A stretch of DNA of 64,000 nucleotides from NCBI GenBank assembly GCA_001657395.1, contig LYSY01000008.1, positions 62,001 through 126,000 on the forward strand, written 5' to 3'. The notes under the pieces were generated by a model that did no database searches, had not been told where the DNA came from, and saw only the letters and a program-made list of their open reading frames with translations. This DNA is from Rhodospirillales bacterium BBD 1991-14. GTDB taxonomy: Bacteria; Pseudomonadota; Alphaproteobacteria; Kiloniellales; Kiloniellaceae. The position numbers and the translations under genes were made by a program. Below are positions 7,778-13,898 of the stretch, piece after piece; positions within the stretch are counted from its first letter, which is position 1; each line of letters opens with the position of its first letter.

Positions 7778-8560
7778 ATGAACCCCACGAATGCGCTGAT
7801 TTCCGAAGAAGCCGTCGACTCGCAGAGCGAGAGCGAGGCGCTCGACGAGGCCCGCGATCTGGTGTCGAACCTGGAACTGCGCGTTCAGCAGGTGAAGAAC
7901 GGCGTTCTGGATCCCCGCGAGGCGGCGCGGACCCTGGCCATGGAGTCGGCCAACCTGCGCATGAAGGCCCGCGCGGTGAACCTCGTCGGCTTCGGTCCCC
8001 TGACCCATCGCCTCGATGAGTACCTCAGCGAAATCGAAGCGGTCGAAGAGCGTCACGCCAACGACCTCATCGCCTTTGCCGACCGCATCGGCAGCCTGCT
8101 GGACGGCGAGGCCGTGGACGCGGAAAACGTCTCCGAGGTGCTGCACGCTCTGCCGCAGCAAAGCGCCTTCAACGTCGATGACGTGGAGATCACCGACAAG
8201 GACGTGACGGTCATCATCCCACAGCGCGCCGCCGCCAAGGTGGTGGGCCGCGAGCTGGCCGCCTGCGGCTACCGGGTGACCAGCGTCACCAACCCGATCG
8301 AGGCGCTGGAACTGATCCTGGAAACCAAGCCCGACCTGGTGATCACCGCCCAGGTGATGCCGCGGCTGAGCGGGGTCGATCTGGCCTGTGCCCTCTCCGC
8401 CATGCCGTCGACCCGTTCCATCCCCATCGCGCTCCTGACGAGCCTGGATCCGGATCATCCGGACCTGAAGTCGCTGCCGATGAACGTCGGGCTGATCCGC
8501 CGCGGCGCCCAGTTCGGCGACGACCTGGCCGACGTGCTGCAACGCTTCAACATCACCTGA
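7778..8560 (+). CDS. Protein with degenerate HPt-like and degenerate receiver domains
   Basis: This 260-residue cytosolic protein follows the two-component pair by 94 bases. Residues about 20-110 are helical and resemble a histidine phosphotransfer domain (RMKARAVNLVGFGPLTHRLD), but no His is found at the phosphoacceptor site. Residues about 142-258 have the receiver fold pattern, with Ala191 in place of the phosphoacceptor Asp (DLVITAQVMPRLSG), no acidic residues after the first strand, and Arg in place of the conserved Lys (LIRRG). Neither half should carry phosphate. A scaffold or inhibitory role toward the neighbouring kinase is possible but is inference. Confidence 0.7.
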   Translation: MNPTNALISEEAVDSQSESEALDEARDLVSNLELRVQQVKNGVLDPREAARTLAMESANLRMKARAVNLVGFGPLTHRLDEYLSEIEAVEERHANDLIAFADRIGSLLDGEAVDAENVSEVLHALPQQSAFNVDDVEITDKDVTVIIPQRAAAKVVGRELAACGYRVTSVTNPIEALELILETKPDLVITAQVMPRLSGVDLACALSAMPSTRSIPIALLTSLDPDHPDLKSLPMNVGLIRRGAQFGDDLADVLQRFNIT

Positions 8561-8574
8561 TCCTTTCCGGGACC

Positions 8575-8623
8575 GCCGCAGTCTGATTGCCGCGGTCTGA
8601 TTGCCGCGGTCTGATTGCCGCAG
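8575..8623. repeat. 14-bp tandem repeat, 3.5 copies
   Basis: Three copies of GCCGC(A/G)GTCTGATT and a half copy follow the stop of the preceding gene at once. It is part of the 356-base gap 8561-8916, which holds this array, the 8661-8756 array and no gene. Confidence 0.93.
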
Positions 8624-8660
8624 CCCGGCCGGCGTAGTCGTCTGGCCGGCGCAATCTCCC

Positions 8661-8756
8661 TGCCCGAACCTCCGCCTGCCCCAACCCCCGCCTGCCCCAA
8701 CCCCCGCCTGCCCCAACCTCTGCCTGCCCCAACCTCTGCCTGCCCCAACCTCTGCC
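8661..8756. repeat. Six 16-bp tandem repeats
   Basis: Six contiguous copies of TGCCC(C/G)AACC(T/C)C(C/T)GCC, in three sub-variants that run in blocks (1, 2, 3 copies), as expected from stepwise duplication. The unit length and copy number equal those of the 5425-5520 array, although the sequences differ. There are no spacers. Confidence 0.95.
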
Positions 8757-8916
8757 TGCAACGCGCGGGCGGCCCGCACTGAAGGCGGGCAATACCCCGG
8801 AATAACTCGCCCGCGCCACCAAGGTGTCATGGCGGAGGCCTTGACTCCCGCAGCCCTTGGGCGAACCCTGACGGCATTGGGGCAGGGTGATTTCAATCAC
8901 TTGCGGAGGCGGTCCA

Positions 8917-9375
8917 ATGAAATTGTCGAACATCTTTGCGGTGGGACTCTGTGCCGCTCTTGGCGGCGCGCCCCTCGGTCTGGCGGTCACGGCGCTCGCC
9001 CAGTCGAGTATGCCCAACGCCTGTCCGGTCGACGGCTGCGTGGTAAAGATCGCAGGCATCGCCAAGGCGGGGACGGAACTGGCCGTGACCTTCGATGCCA
9101 ACTTCATGCCCGATCTGTCGAAGAACCACATCCATATCTGGTGGGGCGAAAGCTATACGGTCGAGCAGGTCAGCAACAACGCCGAGCCCACCTACGGCGT
9201 GAAGCAGGGCGACTGGCACCCCACCGATGCCTACCCGGCCTACACCACGCAAAGCGCCGTATCGACGGGCGCGCGCAACGGCGCCCACACGCTCTGCGTG
9301 ACGGCGGCCGATAGGAACCACGACATTCTCGATGCCAAGGCCTATCACTGCGTGGACGTGCGTGACCACCTGTAG
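8917..9375 (+). CDS. Small secreted protein of unknown function
   Basis: The product has 152 residues. The start at 8917 is preceded by GGAGGCGG. An upstream in-frame start at 8887 would bury the signal peptide and is rejected. Residues 1-29 are a Sec signal peptide ending near ALAQ. The mature part contains CPVDGC near its start and two more Cys near the end (LCV, HC), which suggests disulfide bonds in the periplasm or outside. Aromatic and His residues (HIHIWWG, DWHPTDAYP) are frequent. I do not recognise the family. Only 8 bases separate it from the kinase-STAND gene, so the two are probably co-transcribed. Confidence 0.75.
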   Translation: MKLSNIFAVGLCAALGGAPLGLAVTALAQSSMPNACPVDGCVVKIAGIAKAGTELAVTFDANFMPDLSKNHIHIWWGESYTVEQVSNNAEPTYGVKQGDWHPTDAYPAYTTQSAVSTGARNGAHTLCVTAADRNHDILDAKAYHCVDVRDHL

Positions 9376-9383
9376 ACCTGCCG

Positions 9384-12300
9384 ATGACGCTGCCCACCTA
9401 CGTCGGCCGCTACAGGGTTTGCGATGAGATTGCGAAAGGCGGCTTCGCGACCGTCGTGCGGGCTTGGGATGAAGAGCTTGAATCGTCCGTAGCGGTCAAG
9501 ATCCTTCATCCCAATCTCGCCGAGGACGAAGCCCTGCAGGCGCGCTTCGTTGAAGAGGCCCGCCTCCTGCGGCGGGTTCGCTCGGCCCAGGTGGTAACCG
9601 TCCACGACGTCGGGCGTCTGAACGACGGCCGACCCTACTTCGTGATGGACTTCGCCGACCGCGGAACCCTGGCGCAGCGTATCCGCCCGGACGACGGGAC
9701 CGGCCCGGACCCGCGGGAGGTCACCGTGCTGGTGGACGCCCTGGCCGACGGCCTGGCAGCGATCCACGAAGCCGGACTGGTGCACCGCGACGTCAAGCCG
9801 GCCAACATTCTGTTCCAGCTTGCGCGCCGCGCGCCGGTCGAAGCCGATGCGACGCTGGTGAACGAGCAGCTTCCGCCGCAGGCTCCGCCGCGCCGGCTCG
9901 TGGCCGCAGACGAGCGCGTTCTGGTCGGCGACCTCGGCATCGCCAAGGACCTCGTCAAGCATGGACCGCTGGCGACGATCGTCGGCGGGACCCCGCTCTA
10001 TGAAGCGCCGGAGCAGCGCGACGGGGTCGGCGATGTACTGCCGGCTGCGGACATCTACTCGGCGACCGCTCTGTTGTGGCACGTTCTCACGGGCCAGCGC
10101 CCGCCCCATGCAGAGGTGGTCGCAAGCCACCTGCCGACCTTGGCCGCCGCGTGGCATCCGGTGATCGAACAGGGCATGGCTCTCGATCCCGCGGCGCGCT
10201 TCACCGGCATCGAAAGCTGGCGCGCGGCAATCCACGATGTGCTGGCACAACAGGTTGCCGAGGCCGAGGAAGAGATCCCGACCCGCATCGTCCCCGAGGC
10301 CGGCGGCCGCGACACGGCCTGCCCCTACAAGGGCCTGGCGGCCTATCAGCCGGAAGATGCCGGAGACTTCTTCGGCCGCGAGGCGCTGGTCGACGAGCTG
10401 GTGCGGCGGATCCAGTTGGAGCGGGTGCTTGTGGTCGGCGGCCCTTCGGGCAGCGGCAAGTCCTCCCTCGTGCGCGCCGGTCTGGTGCCGGCGCTGAAAG
10501 CCGGCGCTCTGCTCGGCAGCGATGCCTGGCGCACCATCCTGATGACGCCGGGCCGCGACCCGCTGGCGGAGCTGCACTATGCCCTTACGAGTGCCCTGCC
10601 CGCCGGCAAGAGCGCCATTCCGGTGGCCGACCTGCTGGCACGTCCCGGCCTCGCCCGGCATCTGGGGCGCAGCGACGAGACCGACGCACCGGTCCTGCTG
10701 TGCATCGATCAGTTCGAGGAGCTTTTCACCCTGGCACCGGAAAGCCAGCGCCAGGCCTTTATCGGCGCCCTCTCGGCCATGACCGATCCGGCCGACAGCG
10801 CCGTGCGGGTGGTGATCGCCGTGCGGGCCGATTTCTATGCGGCCTGCGCCGAAGTGCCCTGGCTTGCGGAGCGCATCTCCGGCAACCAGGTCCTGGTCGG
10901 ACCGATGACCCGGTCCGAGCTGCGCCGCGCCATCAGCGAACCGGCGCGCCGCGCCGGCCTCTACGTCGAGCGCAATCTGATCGAGGCGATCATCGACGAG
11001 GCGGGCGAAGAAGCCGGCTCCCTGCCGCTGGTCGCCCACGCGCTGGTGGAAACCTGGCTGCGGCGCCAGGGCAACCGCCTGACGGTCGCCGGATATCGGG
11101 AAGCCGGCGGCGTCGCGGGTGCGATCAGCCAGACCGCCGAGGCCACCTACCAGAGCAGCTTCGGCAATGCCGAGCGCGACGCCACGCGGCGTCTCTTTCT
11201 GCGTCTGGTCACGCCGGGCGAAGAGACACCCGATACGCGCCGCATCCTCGCACGCAATGAGATCGAACACGACAGCAGCCCGAAGGTCCTGCAGCGTGTC
11301 GTCGAGCGCCTGACCGAGGCCAGGCTTCTGACCGTCGACGCCCAGAACGTCCAGATCGCCCACGAAGCGCTGCTGCGCACCTGGCCGCGGCTGCGCGACT
11401 GGATCGAGGAGAGTCGCGACGACCTGCGCACGCGCCAACGTCTCGCCCGCGCTGCGGCGGAGTGGGATGCCGCCGGCCGCGATGCCGACCTGCTGTACCG
11501 CGGCACCCCCCTGCTGACCGCGCAGGACTGGGCGGCCAAGCGGCCCGACCTGCCGGGAGAACTCGACCGCGCCTTTATCGAGGCCTCGGCCAAGGCCAAG
11601 GCCGAAGCCGTTGCAACAGCCGCCGAGCGGCGGCGGCGCCAGCGGCGCACCCGCCGCATAGCAGTATCGATGTTGTCGTTTCTGGCGGCCGGCGCCTCGG
11701 TCGCCTCGGTCGTTGCCTTCCTGGCTCTGCGCGAGGCCCAGGAGAACGAGGAGCGGGCCGAGCGCGCAACCGCCCAAGCGACCGAACGTTTCGCCGGGGC
11801 GCTGGGCGCTGCAGCCAACGGCCTGGTCGAGGCCGACCCGCTGCTCGCCCTGGCCCTGGCCGCCGAGGCGGTCGCCCGTGCCGGGCCGGGCGCCGAGGGC
11901 TTCGACGCCCGCGCCTCCATGATCGCCGCGCGCGATGCTCTCACCGGCGAAGGCCCCTTTCTCGTCGGCAGCCCCATCCCCGCCGGGGATGCCCTGGCCA
12001 TCGCCATGACACCGGACGGGACACTGCTGGCCACCGGCCGGCGCGACGGCACCATAGAGATCATCGACGTCGCCATGCGCCGGCCCGTCGGCCCCAGCCT
12101 GCAGGGCCACAGCGGTGGCATCCAGGATCTTCAGTTCACGCCCGACGCGCGCCACCTGGTCTCCGCCGGCGACGACGGCGCCGTCCACATCCGGGCTGTC
12201 GGCGACGGCCTGGGCGGCCAGGCACGCACCATCGCCCAGTCGCAGGACATCGTCTGGGGCGTAAGGGTCGATCCGGCGGGAGATCGGCTCGCCGCCGCCG

Positions 12301-13898
12301 GCGAAGACGGCAGCGTCCGGCTCTGGGACCTGCCGAAGGGGGACCTGCCGAAGGGGGACCTGCCGAAGGGGGACGTGCCAAAGGGGGATATGGCGGAGGG
12401 CGCCCCGCCACGCCCACCGCTGATCGATCGCGCCAGCGATTTTCTGAGCGTCCGGTTCACCCCCGACGGCAATGGGCTGGTCGCGGGCACCGGAGCCGGC
12501 GACATCTTCGCCTGGGCGCTGCCGACGGCGGAGTTCGTCTTCGAGCCGATCCGCAGCGCGCATACCAGCGACGTCTGGAGCCTGGCCTTCAGCCCGCAGG
12601 GCGACCGCTTCGCCACCGCCAGCAGCGATGCCACCTCGATGCTGGTCGACTATCCCGGCGGCCGGATCATCGGCCAGGCTTTCACCGGCGCCGGGGCGAT
12701 CAACGAAGTGGCCTTTGCCCCCGACGGAGAGACCCTGTTCGGGGGCGGGGGCGACGGCGCCCTGCACCTCTGGCAACCGATCCGCAACGAACCCATCGCC
12801 TCGACGCCCAGCGGACACAGCCGCGGCATCATCGACATCGAGGTCAGCCGCGACGGCCACCGCCTGGCGACCCTCGGCCGCGACCAGCTTGTCCGTCTCT
12901 GGCAGATGGGGGTCGAACGGCCCCTGGCCAGCGCACAGCGGGTGCCGGGTGCGGCGGCCAAGGGGTTGGCGGTCAGCGCCGACGGGCGCCGGCTGGCCGC
13001 CGGAGACGACAGCGGCGTGGTCACGGTCTGGGACCCTGAGGCCCCCGGCAACGCCCAGCACCTCACCGGCCACCGCCACCAGGTCTGGGCGCTGGCCTTC
13101 GCACCGGACGGGCGCCTGCTGGCCGCCGGCGACCGCAGCGGGGAGGTCCGGCTCTGGGACCTCGAAAGCGGCGGCCAGCGCAGTCTGCTGAAGGTCGATC
13201 AGGGCGCGGTCTGGTCGCTGGCCTTTGCCGCCGGCGGCCAGCGGCTGATCGCGGCCAGCGACGGCGGCGTCAGCCTCTGGGACGTCGCGGAGGCAGCCCG
13301 CGAGACAGTGCTGGATCATGACGGCGGCGCGGTGACCCGCGCCGCGCTGGCCCCCGACGAAAGGGTGCTGGCGGTGGCCGCGACCGACGGACGCATCCAA
13401 CTCTGGGATCTGGACGACGCCAGCCTGCGGCGCGAATTCCAGGCCGAAGACGACGTGGTCTGGAGCCTTGCCTTCAGCCCGGACGGGCGCAGCCTCGCCA
13501 CCGCGTCCAGCGACGAGGTGGTGACGCTCTGGGACGTCGAGACCGGCGAAAGACTCGGCGTCTTGACCGGTCACCCCGGCGGCGCCACCGATCTGGCCTA
13601 TCTCGCCGACGGCGTGACACTGGTGGTCACCGACCGCAGCGGGCAGCTTCATCTCTGGGATGTCCCGACGGGCCGGCGCCTGGCGGAAGGACGGCGGGGC
13701 CACGACGGCGCCAGTTGGCGGGTGGCGGTCCATCCGGACGGCCAGCGATTTGCCACCAGCGGCGACGACGGCCGGGTGCTGCTCTGGGACAGCTTGAGCG
13801 TGGCCCGGGCCTGCACCATCAGCGGCCCTGCCTTCGACCCGACCCGGCGCGATCAATACCTGGGCAGGGGCGAAGCCTCCCGCGCCTGCGCGCCGTGA
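9384..13898 (+). CDS. Ser/Thr kinase - STAND ATPase - transmembrane - WD40 protein
   Basis: A single 1504-residue polypeptide. Residues 8-290 are a Hanks-type kinase: Lys39 (VAVKIL), HRDVKPAN with Asp136, Asp183 in DLG instead of DFG, and Glu210 in APE. About 28 extra residues sit between the catalytic loop and DLG. Residues 315-740 are a STAND-type ATPase (FFGRE, Walker A GPSGSGKSS at about 353-361, Walker B LLCIDQFEEL at 438-447). An Arg-rich stop and one membrane helix (759-782) precede a short coiled coil. Residues about 870-1490 are a chain of WD40 blades (repeated LWDL/LWDV ends). With a cytosolic kinase, the WD40 propeller would be periplasmic or extracytoplasmic. It probably senses a ligand or partner by the propeller and signals by the kinase. 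The ligand is unknown. Confidence 0.93.
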   Translation: MTLPTYVGRYRVCDEIAKGGFATVVRAWDEELESSVAVKILHPNLAEDEALQARFVEEARLLRRVRSAQVVTVHDVGRLNDGRPYFVMDFADRGTLAQRIRPDDGTGPDPREVTVLVDALADGLAAIHEAGLVHRDVKPANILFQLARRAPVEADATLVNEQLPPQAPPRRLVAADERVLVGDLGIAKDLVKHGPLATIVGGTPLYEAPEQRDGVGDVLPAADIYSATALLWHVLTGQRPPHAEVVASHLPTLAAAWHPVIEQGMALDPAARFTGIESWRAAIHDVLAQQVAEAEEEIPTRIVPEAGGRDTACPYKGLAAYQPEDAGDFFGREALVDELVRRIQLERVLVVGGPSGSGKSSLVRAGLVPALKAGALLGSDAWRTILMTPGRDPLAELHYALTSALPAGKSAIPVADLLARPGLARHLGRSDETDAPVLLCIDQFEELFTLAPESQRQAFIGALSAMTDPADSAVRVVIAVRADFYAACAEVPWLAERISGNQVLVGPMTRSELRRAISEPARRAGLYVERNLIEAIIDEAGEEAGSLPLVAHALVETWLRRQGNRLTVAGYREAGGVAGAISQTAEATYQSSFGNAERDATRRLFLRLVTPGEETPDTRRILARNEIEHDSSPKVLQRVVERLTEARLLTVDAQNVQIAHEALLRTWPRLRDWIEESRDDLRTRQRLARAAAEWDAAGRDADLLYRGTPLLTAQDWAAKRPDLPGELDRAFIEASAKAKAEAVATAAERRRRQRRTRRIAVSMLSFLAAGASVASVVAFLALREAQENEERAERATAQATERFAGALGAAANGLVEADPLLALALAAEAVARAGPGAEGFDARASMIAARDALTGEGPFLVGSPIPAGDALAIAMTPDGTLLATGRRDGTIEIIDVAMRRPVGPSLQGHSGGIQDLQFTPDARHLVSAGDDGAVHIRAVGDGLGGQARTIAQSQDIVWGVRVDPAGDRLAAAGEDGSVRLWDLPKGDLPKGDLPKGDVPKGDMAEGAPPRPPLIDRASDFLSVRFTPDGNGLVAGTGAGDIFAWALPTAEFVFEPIRSAHTSDVWSLAFSPQGDRFATASSDATSMLVDYPGGRIIGQAFTGAGAINEVAFAPDGETLFGGGGDGALHLWQPIRNEPIASTPSGHSRGIIDIEVSRDGHRLATLGRDQLVRLWQMGVERPLASAQRVPGAAAKGLAVSADGRRLAAGDDSGVVTVWDPEAPGNAQHLTGHRHQVWALAFAPDGRLLAAGDRSGEVRLWDLESGGQRSLLKVDQGAVWSLAFAAGGQRLIAASDGGVSLWDVAEAARETVLDHDGGAVTRAALAPDERVLAVAATDGRIQLWDLDDASLRREFQAEDDVVWSLAFSPDGRSLATASSDEVVTLWDVETGERLGVLTGHPGGATDLAYLADGVTLVVTDRSGQLHLWDVPTGRRLAEGRRGHDGASWRVAVHPDGQRFATSGDDGRVLLWDSLSVARACTISGPAFDPTRRDQYLGRGEASRACAP
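12327..12401 (+). repeat. In-frame 15-bp repeat inside the WD40 region
   Basis: Three exact copies of GACCTGCCGAAGGGG plus two diverged copies encode DLPKG-DLPKG-DLPKG-DVPKG-DMAEG at residues 982-1006. They lie in a loop directly after a blade ending in LWD. Unit length is a multiple of three, so copy changes keep the frame. Confidence 0.95.

Follow-up and report, generated by a model that had tools for sequence, protein, structure and literature searches.

We describe here a two-gene unit at positions 8917 to 13898 of a 64,000-nucleotide stretch of DNA from Rhodospirillales bacterium BBD 1991-14 (contig LYSY01000008.1, positions 62,001 to 126,000, forward strand; referred to in its whole length as the window). 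The first gene encodes a small secreted protein, and the second a large membrane protein in which a serine/threonine (Ser/Thr) kinase, a nucleoside triphosphatase (NTPase) of the signal transduction ATPases with numerous domains (STAND) class and a WD40 region are joined. The adjacency of the two genes is far beyond chance, they are inherited together, and in relatives they are often adjoined by a third gene in which an FHA domain is fused to a class III nucleotide cyclase. Judged from their sequences, the small protein and the kinase look like a new bacterial receptor system. We favour, with moderate confidence, the reading that this is an envelope-sensing receptor kinase unit, in which the periplasmic small protein would act on the WD40 ectodomain and a cyclase would provide the output in many relatives.

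Conservation and co-inheritance of the gene pair

Both open reading frames (ORFs) lie on the + strand and begin with ATG. As the first-pass annotation of this DNA had described, the ORF of the small protein (152 amino acids, 8917..9375) ends 8 bases (9376..9383) before that of the large protein (1504 amino acids, 9384..13898). An alternative in-frame GTG upstream, at 8887, would lengthen the small protein to 162 amino acids.

A scan of GTDB contigs with the small protein yielded 16 loci, three of them in the Pelagibius/Kiloniellaceae group, four in Ruegeria, six in Desulfobacterales and one each in Competibacteraceae, Granulosicoccaceae and Sedimenticola. The large gene lies directly downstream on the same strand at all 16, with the end of the contig falling inside it, before the WD40 part, at L019. 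Searches of taxonomic groups added three Ruegeria and three gammaproteobacterial loci, five of the six with the large gene. When the window is included, the large gene directly follows the small gene on the same strand at 22 of 23 loci; the gap is 7-15 bases at 18 of these 22 and 300-400 bases at L017. Other genomes thus bear out the earlier suggestion of a two-gene unit and show it to be conserved, the genes being adjacent at these 22 loci and co-occurring by genome. The small gene was not seen to go without the kinase in most genomes; the kinase is missing beside it once in 23 loci (L094).

Joint presence or absence of the two genes was without exception in the three taxa searched (8, 54 and 242 genomes). 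Of the eight genomes in the window's genus, four have the small gene, and these four alone have the orthologous large gene (Fisher p 0.03; the p values for co-occurrence are not corrected for relatedness). Seven of 54 genomes in the Ruegeria genus group of L010 have the small gene, and the same seven have the large gene (p 6e-9), as do the same six of 242 genomes in the order of the Desulfosarcina locus (p 4e-12); because the contig scan had already turned up all six Desulfobacterales genomes and four of the seven from Ruegeria before the groups were searched, these frequencies are not unbiased. The NTPase in the seven Ruegeria genomes shows 56-63% identity to that of the window, and the best other one in that group, from a genome without the small gene, shows 36%; the corresponding values in the order of the Desulfosarcina locus are 68-71% for the six genomes and 39-40% for the best-scoring others. 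A 385-genome sample of the window's class contained the small gene in the window's own genome only, and 369 genomes of the class of L018 (Gammaproteobacteria) contained it in four; in these large group searches, as in that of the 242 genomes, only some of the first-look candidates were scored per genome, so misses are possible. No relatives of the small protein were found in plasmids and viral contigs. By the group-search counts, the unit is rare, with a patchy distribution, and its small protein follows one kinase clade, not nSTAND1 proteins in general. One further candidate, L005 (same order, E 4.6e-4, 25% identity), was dismissed, its reading frame having by eye no Cys/NHxHxWWG core.

Trees of the small and the large protein contain the same main clades, with a distance correlation of 0.79 (a quick method with no bootstrap). 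In both, the closest copies to that of the window, beyond those of its own group, are the desulfobacterial ones and not those of Ruegeria. Joint transfer of the two genes would fit this pattern, although support for several deep forks is poor and the branches of L089 and L018 are long. The trees were built without L019 and L094, and the large-protein alignment used below (A2) without L019 and L089-L093.

The small secreted protein

The small protein begins with a Sec-type signal peptide at about residues 1-28, judged by eye from a hydrophobic stretch followed by ALA-Q. The mature domain contains Cys at positions 36, 41, 127 and 145 and the conserved core NHxHxWWG...QGxW...ADRxH. Across 23 sequences, 32 of the 128 residues in the window row do not vary, among them the four Cys and the NHxHxWWG, QGxW and ADRxH motifs. 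Median pairwise identity over 21 loci is 63% for the mature part of the small protein, which is the value for the STAND part as well, with 53% for the kinase and 39-42% for the ectodomain. Such conservation may reflect a disulphide-braced pocket for a ligand or metal.

Searches of Pfam (at E 1), PADLOC and the PDB gave no match to the small protein, and NCBIfam gave only a chance-level one; profile and member-by-member searches likewise found no credible family for it. DUF4399 (E 0.088, one of 17 members) and DUF4440 (E 0.017, one member) were dismissed as chance-level matches. This is a deeply conserved family with neither a Pfam nor an NCBIfam model. Two AlphaFold models, with the signal peptide and for the mature part, had a mean predicted local distance difference test score (pLDDT) of 69 and 82, respectively, and both were beta-sandwiches. 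The better one, a small beta-sandwich made for the mature part with 17 sequences, had a pLDDT of 82 and a predicted template modelling score of 0.79, and was the only good one of five models (82 versus 65 or less). Foldseek searches with these models returned nothing at E 0.001 or better; the best matches were weak, many of them to immunoglobulin (Ig) or fibronectin type III (FN3) domains, and because all matches were weak no fold homology is claimed.

Two subtypes of the small protein can be recognized in alignment A3, one with QVGRNA...WHRH and the other with QVSNNA (QVSDNA in one row)...DWHPTD. The latter is found in the Pelagibius/Kiloniellaceae group and in Ruegeria L089. The two subtypes may mark different ligands.

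Domain make-up and predicted topology of the large protein

A Pfam scan of the large protein, in which the best 25 of 67 families were considered and after which its parts were scanned separately (again with the best 25 families for the propeller), agrees with hydropathy on the presence of a kinase, a STAND ATPase, one membrane helix and WD40 repeats in a single protein, the architecture first proposed from the sequence of the window. The Hanks-type Ser/Thr kinase domain (residues 10-242, 9411..10109, + strand) matches Pkinase with E 7e-27 and 94.9 bits against a curated score of 31.7, and has the catalytic Lys, HRD and DxG of such kinases; K39, HRDxKPxN (D136) and DLG (D183) are invariant in all 16 aligned rows, that of the window included. 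The NTPase (residues 314-701, 10323..11486, + strand) belongs to nSTAND1 (Pfam PF20703), with 435.1 bits against a curated 27.1, and its Walker A (GGxSGSGKSS) and Walker B-like (DQFEE) motifs are likewise invariant in the 16 rows. The catalytic motifs of both domains would therefore appear intact. In the WD40 region (about residues 860-1470, 11961..13793, + strand) 13 repeats were matched by Pfam, and it probably forms two propellers. A WD40 loop at 12325-12388 contains an in-frame 15-base tandem repeat of 4.3 copies that encodes LPKGD units. The nearest relative, L006, has three units fewer and the other rows of alignment A2 have none; the repeat is a recent slippage in the receptor ectodomain.

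The single predicted membrane helix (residues 764-782, 11673..11729, + strand) is the sole outstanding hydrophobic segment in the window's protein, with eight K/R in the 20 residues preceding it and four in those following. The same bias is present in all 16 rows (6-9 K/R in the 20 residues before the helix and 2-4 in the 20 after). The C-terminal tail (13794..13895, + strand) carries C1477 and C1502, which are invariant in the alignment and kept as a pair in 21 of 21 aligned tails; they are the only ectodomain cysteines in 13 of 16 rows, with C961 in addition in the other three, and a disulphide between them is likely. Hydropathy, charge bias and cysteine pattern, inspected on the sequence with no topology predictor, all agree with an N-in/C-out arrangement. 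A cytosolic kinase and STAND part and a periplasmic WD40 part with a tail disulphide would be the simplest reading, and the proposal of the first-pass annotation that the propeller lies outside the cytosol is supported to this extent. DeepTMHMM-based predictions for Planctomycetota WD40 kinases match the same topology (PMC11032199; this and the other papers cited were available in part, and statements about them extend to those parts).

An FHA-cyclase gene beside the pair in relatives

The recurrent neighbour among the 22 pair loci is a gene that fuses an FHA domain to a class III nucleotide cyclase. It adjoins the pair at 12 of the 22, and at L093 the end of the contig truncates such a gene at its FHA end; at L009 and L020, where only 422 and 8 bases of sequence precede the small ORF, a third gene cannot be judged. 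All seven Ruegeria loci have it next to the pair in the domain order cyclase-FHA, upstream on the same strand in six and divergent in L089. It is upstream on the same strand at four Desulfobacterales loci too, with the opposite order FHA-cyclase, and at the gammaproteobacterial locus L092 it is convergent and downstream of the pair. Both domains score above the Pfam curated values in 12 of 12. FHA domains bind phosphothreonine. The Asp, Asn and Arg positions that we take to be the class III cyclase motifs are kept in 12 of 12, as are the GR and SRxH motifs of the FHA domain, the FHA motifs being used here as in PMC1262709. A cyclase as the output is a new and testable lead that the first-pass annotation had not noticed, and it stands as a candidate on these sequences.

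Two other arrangements of cyclase genes were observed. On a second contig of the window's genome (L125:8610-14828, contig C2), a cyclase-FHA gene is found with genes for a PP2C phosphatase, a Ser/Thr kinase with Sel1 repeats and a peptidoglycan-binding domain, and an OmpA-family protein. In one Pelagibius genome (L007:2606-4060), a bacterial globin gene followed by a class III cyclase gene with no FHA match is located upstream of the pair; these two genes were not found in the other loci searched and are therefore not counted in the unit.

Surroundings of the pair in the window

By Pfam, the ten genes near the pair encode an aminotransferase of class IV, MarR, an OmpR-type response regulator, a histidine kinase, a receiver-domain protein, a tRNA-binding domain, LysR, a FAD-dependent oxidoreductase, a phasin and TetR. 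The receiver-domain gene, upstream of the pair at 7778-8560, is kept in L006 and L007 and was not found in L008, which has different neighbours. Two tandem arrays are located upstream of the small gene, at 8575-8621 (a 14-base unit, 3.4 copies) and 8659-8759 (a 16-base unit, 6.3 copies), and a scan for promoters and terminators over 8500-9450 found nothing.

PADLOC gave weak matches for two of the ten neighbours, the MarR-type (winged-helix) and receiver-domain genes (E 2.5e-5 to 2e-7), and no effector or effector-associated domain was among the Pfam matches listed for the ten. On the evidence of Pfam and PADLOC, the surroundings are not a defence island. In the large protein (best 25 of 35 PADLOC families for the whole), the kinase domain matches the PD-T4-6 and mad6 models. 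The PD-T4-6 matches lie, among the matches listed, within residues 4-321 of 1504, and the protein as a whole does not qualify as a PD-T4-6 match. The C3a189 kinase model aligns with residues 17-800 in the whole protein and with 17-144 when the kinase domain is scanned alone. When the parts are scanned separately, PADLOC finds nothing in the STAND part and only HEAT-ARM_XIII in the WD40 part, and no effector, effector-associated or toxin domain is among the Pfam matches listed for the three parts.

Proposed mechanism and alternative explanations

As the first-pass annotation had proposed, the small protein may plausibly serve the predicted ectodomain as a ligand or co-receptor, much as TagR or RtkS acts on PpkA (see below). 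Once exported to the periplasm, it would act there on the WD40 part of the kinase, and would either carry, or change state with, an envelope signal or hold the receptor in a competent form. Engagement of the ectodomain would lead the cytosolic nSTAND1 NTPase to change its nucleotide state and oligomerise, and the kinase domains, brought together in this way, would switch phosphorylation on. The most likely output in Ruegeria, Desulfobacterales and some gammaproteobacteria would be the adjacent FHA-class III cyclase, which could dock on phosphothreonine with altered cyclic nucleotide synthesis as the result. The binding, the STAND oligomerisation, the cyclase as target and the nature of the signal are what we infer in this scheme. 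More tentatively, the three genes might form a pathway from an envelope signal to a cyclic nucleotide, in which a new periplasmic family of beta-sandwich sensors acts on a STAND-gated receptor kinase resembling nucleotide-binding leucine-rich repeat receptors, whose phosphothreonines recruit the FHA-nucleotide cyclase; the opposite domain orders would then mean that an FHA-cyclase was recruited at least two times.

Several observations weigh against the receptor kinase reading or against the cyclase as its output. A divergent, lipoprotein-like copy of the small family stands alone at L094:1015-1491, where a TIR-domain gene is its tail-to-tail neighbour; the large gene is absent at that place (it was looked for at the locus only, not elsewhere in the genome, G845), so the small domain may work without this kinase. 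Co-evolution of surfaces might predict that the small protein changes faster where the propeller does, and it does not: in 206 of 210 pairs its conservation exceeds that of the C-terminal half of the propeller, although their divergences correlate at 0.75-0.83, co-variation having been assessed by distances only and on few independent rows. No FHA-cyclase gene is found beside the pair in the window, L006, L007 and L008, that is, in the window's genus, nor at L017, L018 and L019, where upstream sequence is present. In all eight genomes of that genus, with or without the pair, a cyclase-FHA gene is located at 1.0-1.3 kb from a match to another kinase. Of the FHA motifs, the third (NG) is conserved in the four Desulfobacterales rows and in L092, but six Ruegeria rows have SG at this place and L089 has LG. 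Finally, eight of 47 pairless genomes of the Ruegeria group also carry a cyclase-FHA gene, against seven of seven with the pair (Fisher p 4e-5, uncorrected for relatedness); in three of these eight (L159-L161), no match to the window's kinase was present among the ORFs picked beside it. On these counts, the cyclase is likely a partner in some lineages and not an obligatory part.

Strict pairing and near-contact gene order would also be expected if the small protein served in the periplasm to chaperone or stabilise the large ectodomain, carrying no signal itself, and the kinase were degraded in its absence. The small protein being more conserved than the ectodomain would suit this, and RtkS is reported to be necessary for the stability of PpkA (PMC6082577). 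However, the invariant His/Trp/Asp/Arg core would seem to resemble a binding pocket more than the face of a generic chaperone, and the available text of PMC11032199 mentions no such partner for the periplasmic-WD40 kinases of Planctomycetota, which is weak evidence; we regard a chaperone as unlikely. A quite unlikely explanation, in our judgement, makes the small protein itself the functional output, or else an enzyme or ligand-binding protein that works independently in the periplasm, co-transcribed with the kinase as its regulator and making no contact with the ectodomain. The deeply conserved core, with its four Cys and several His, is in keeping with this, as is the solo lipoprotein-like copy, which has ABC transporter genes of the glycine-betaine type next to it, but the small protein is co-inherited with one specific kinase clade and not with the more distant nSTAND1 proteins of the same groups.

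The first-pass annotation had raised a role in conflict or defence for the STAND part, and the pair could in principle be an anti-phage system in which detection of an invader by the ectodomain would lead the STAND-kinase to kill or arrest the cell. The patchy distribution agrees with this, nSTAND1 is named in a study of conflict systems (PMC8195603), and the kinase has the PD-T4-6 and mad6 matches, as well as the C3a189 alignment, given above. We nevertheless consider it very improbable and have dropped it as the principal interpretation: the neighbours are ordinary, the PADLOC matches listed are to the kinase and the propeller and, weakly, to two of the neighbours, with none for the STAND part alone, no effector-associated or toxin domain is among the Pfam matches listed for the three parts, no relative of the small protein was found in viral contigs and plasmids, and the neighbour that looks like an output in relatives encodes a nucleotide cyclase.

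Comparison with known systems

To our knowledge, the coupling of STAND NTPases to extracellular signals is largely open, as are the signals and targets of bacterial WD40 receptor kinases. The nSTAND1 family, to which the NTPase described here belongs (PF20703, 435 bits), was reportedly named by Kaur and colleagues. In contrast to nSTAND1 conflict proteins, this protein has no effector-associated domain or lethal effector among the matches listed, which apart from the NTPase include no catalytic domain but the kinase. A dedicated secreted partner for one kinase clade, together with a candidate second-messenger output in Ruegeria, makes both ends of the putative pathway testable by simple deletions. 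No description of this pair or of the triplet was found in the available parts of the open literature, subscription papers being outside its scope; PMC7159879 deals with a membrane conflict system of two genes and with kinases related to versions that are fused to propellers.

The Ser/Thr kinases of Planctomycetota resemble the large protein in having a cytosolic kinase, mostly one helix and a WD40 part predicted to be periplasmic (PMC11032199), and PkwA of Thermomonospora also combines a kinase with WD40 repeats (PMC6113231, PMC6805158), but neither a STAND NTPase nor a dedicated secreted partner is mentioned for either in the accessible text of these papers. PknT-EcfP and PknS-EcfK are likewise cases of a Ser/Thr kinase that activates a dedicated target by phosphorylation (PMC8999054, PMC13147305), the target there being an extracytoplasmic function (ECF) sigma factor whereas in relatives of our unit it would be the FHA-cyclase. 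In the type VI secretion system (T6SS), TagR or RtkS, located in the periplasm, acts on the domain exposed there by the membrane Ser/Thr kinase PpkA, which phosphorylates the cytosolic FHA partner Fha (PMC6082577, PMC3953482). No T6SS gene was identified among the neighbours of the pair, no T6SS profile having been run on the loci. Unlike PpkA, the kinase described here has a WD40 ectodomain and an nSTAND1 NTPase between the membrane and the kinase domain, its small partner is of no known family, and in relatives the FHA protein includes a nucleotide cyclase as a fused domain. We do not class the unit as a member of the T6SS threonine phosphorylation pathway, but that pathway is its closest working precedent, and by analogy the unit may work in a similar way.

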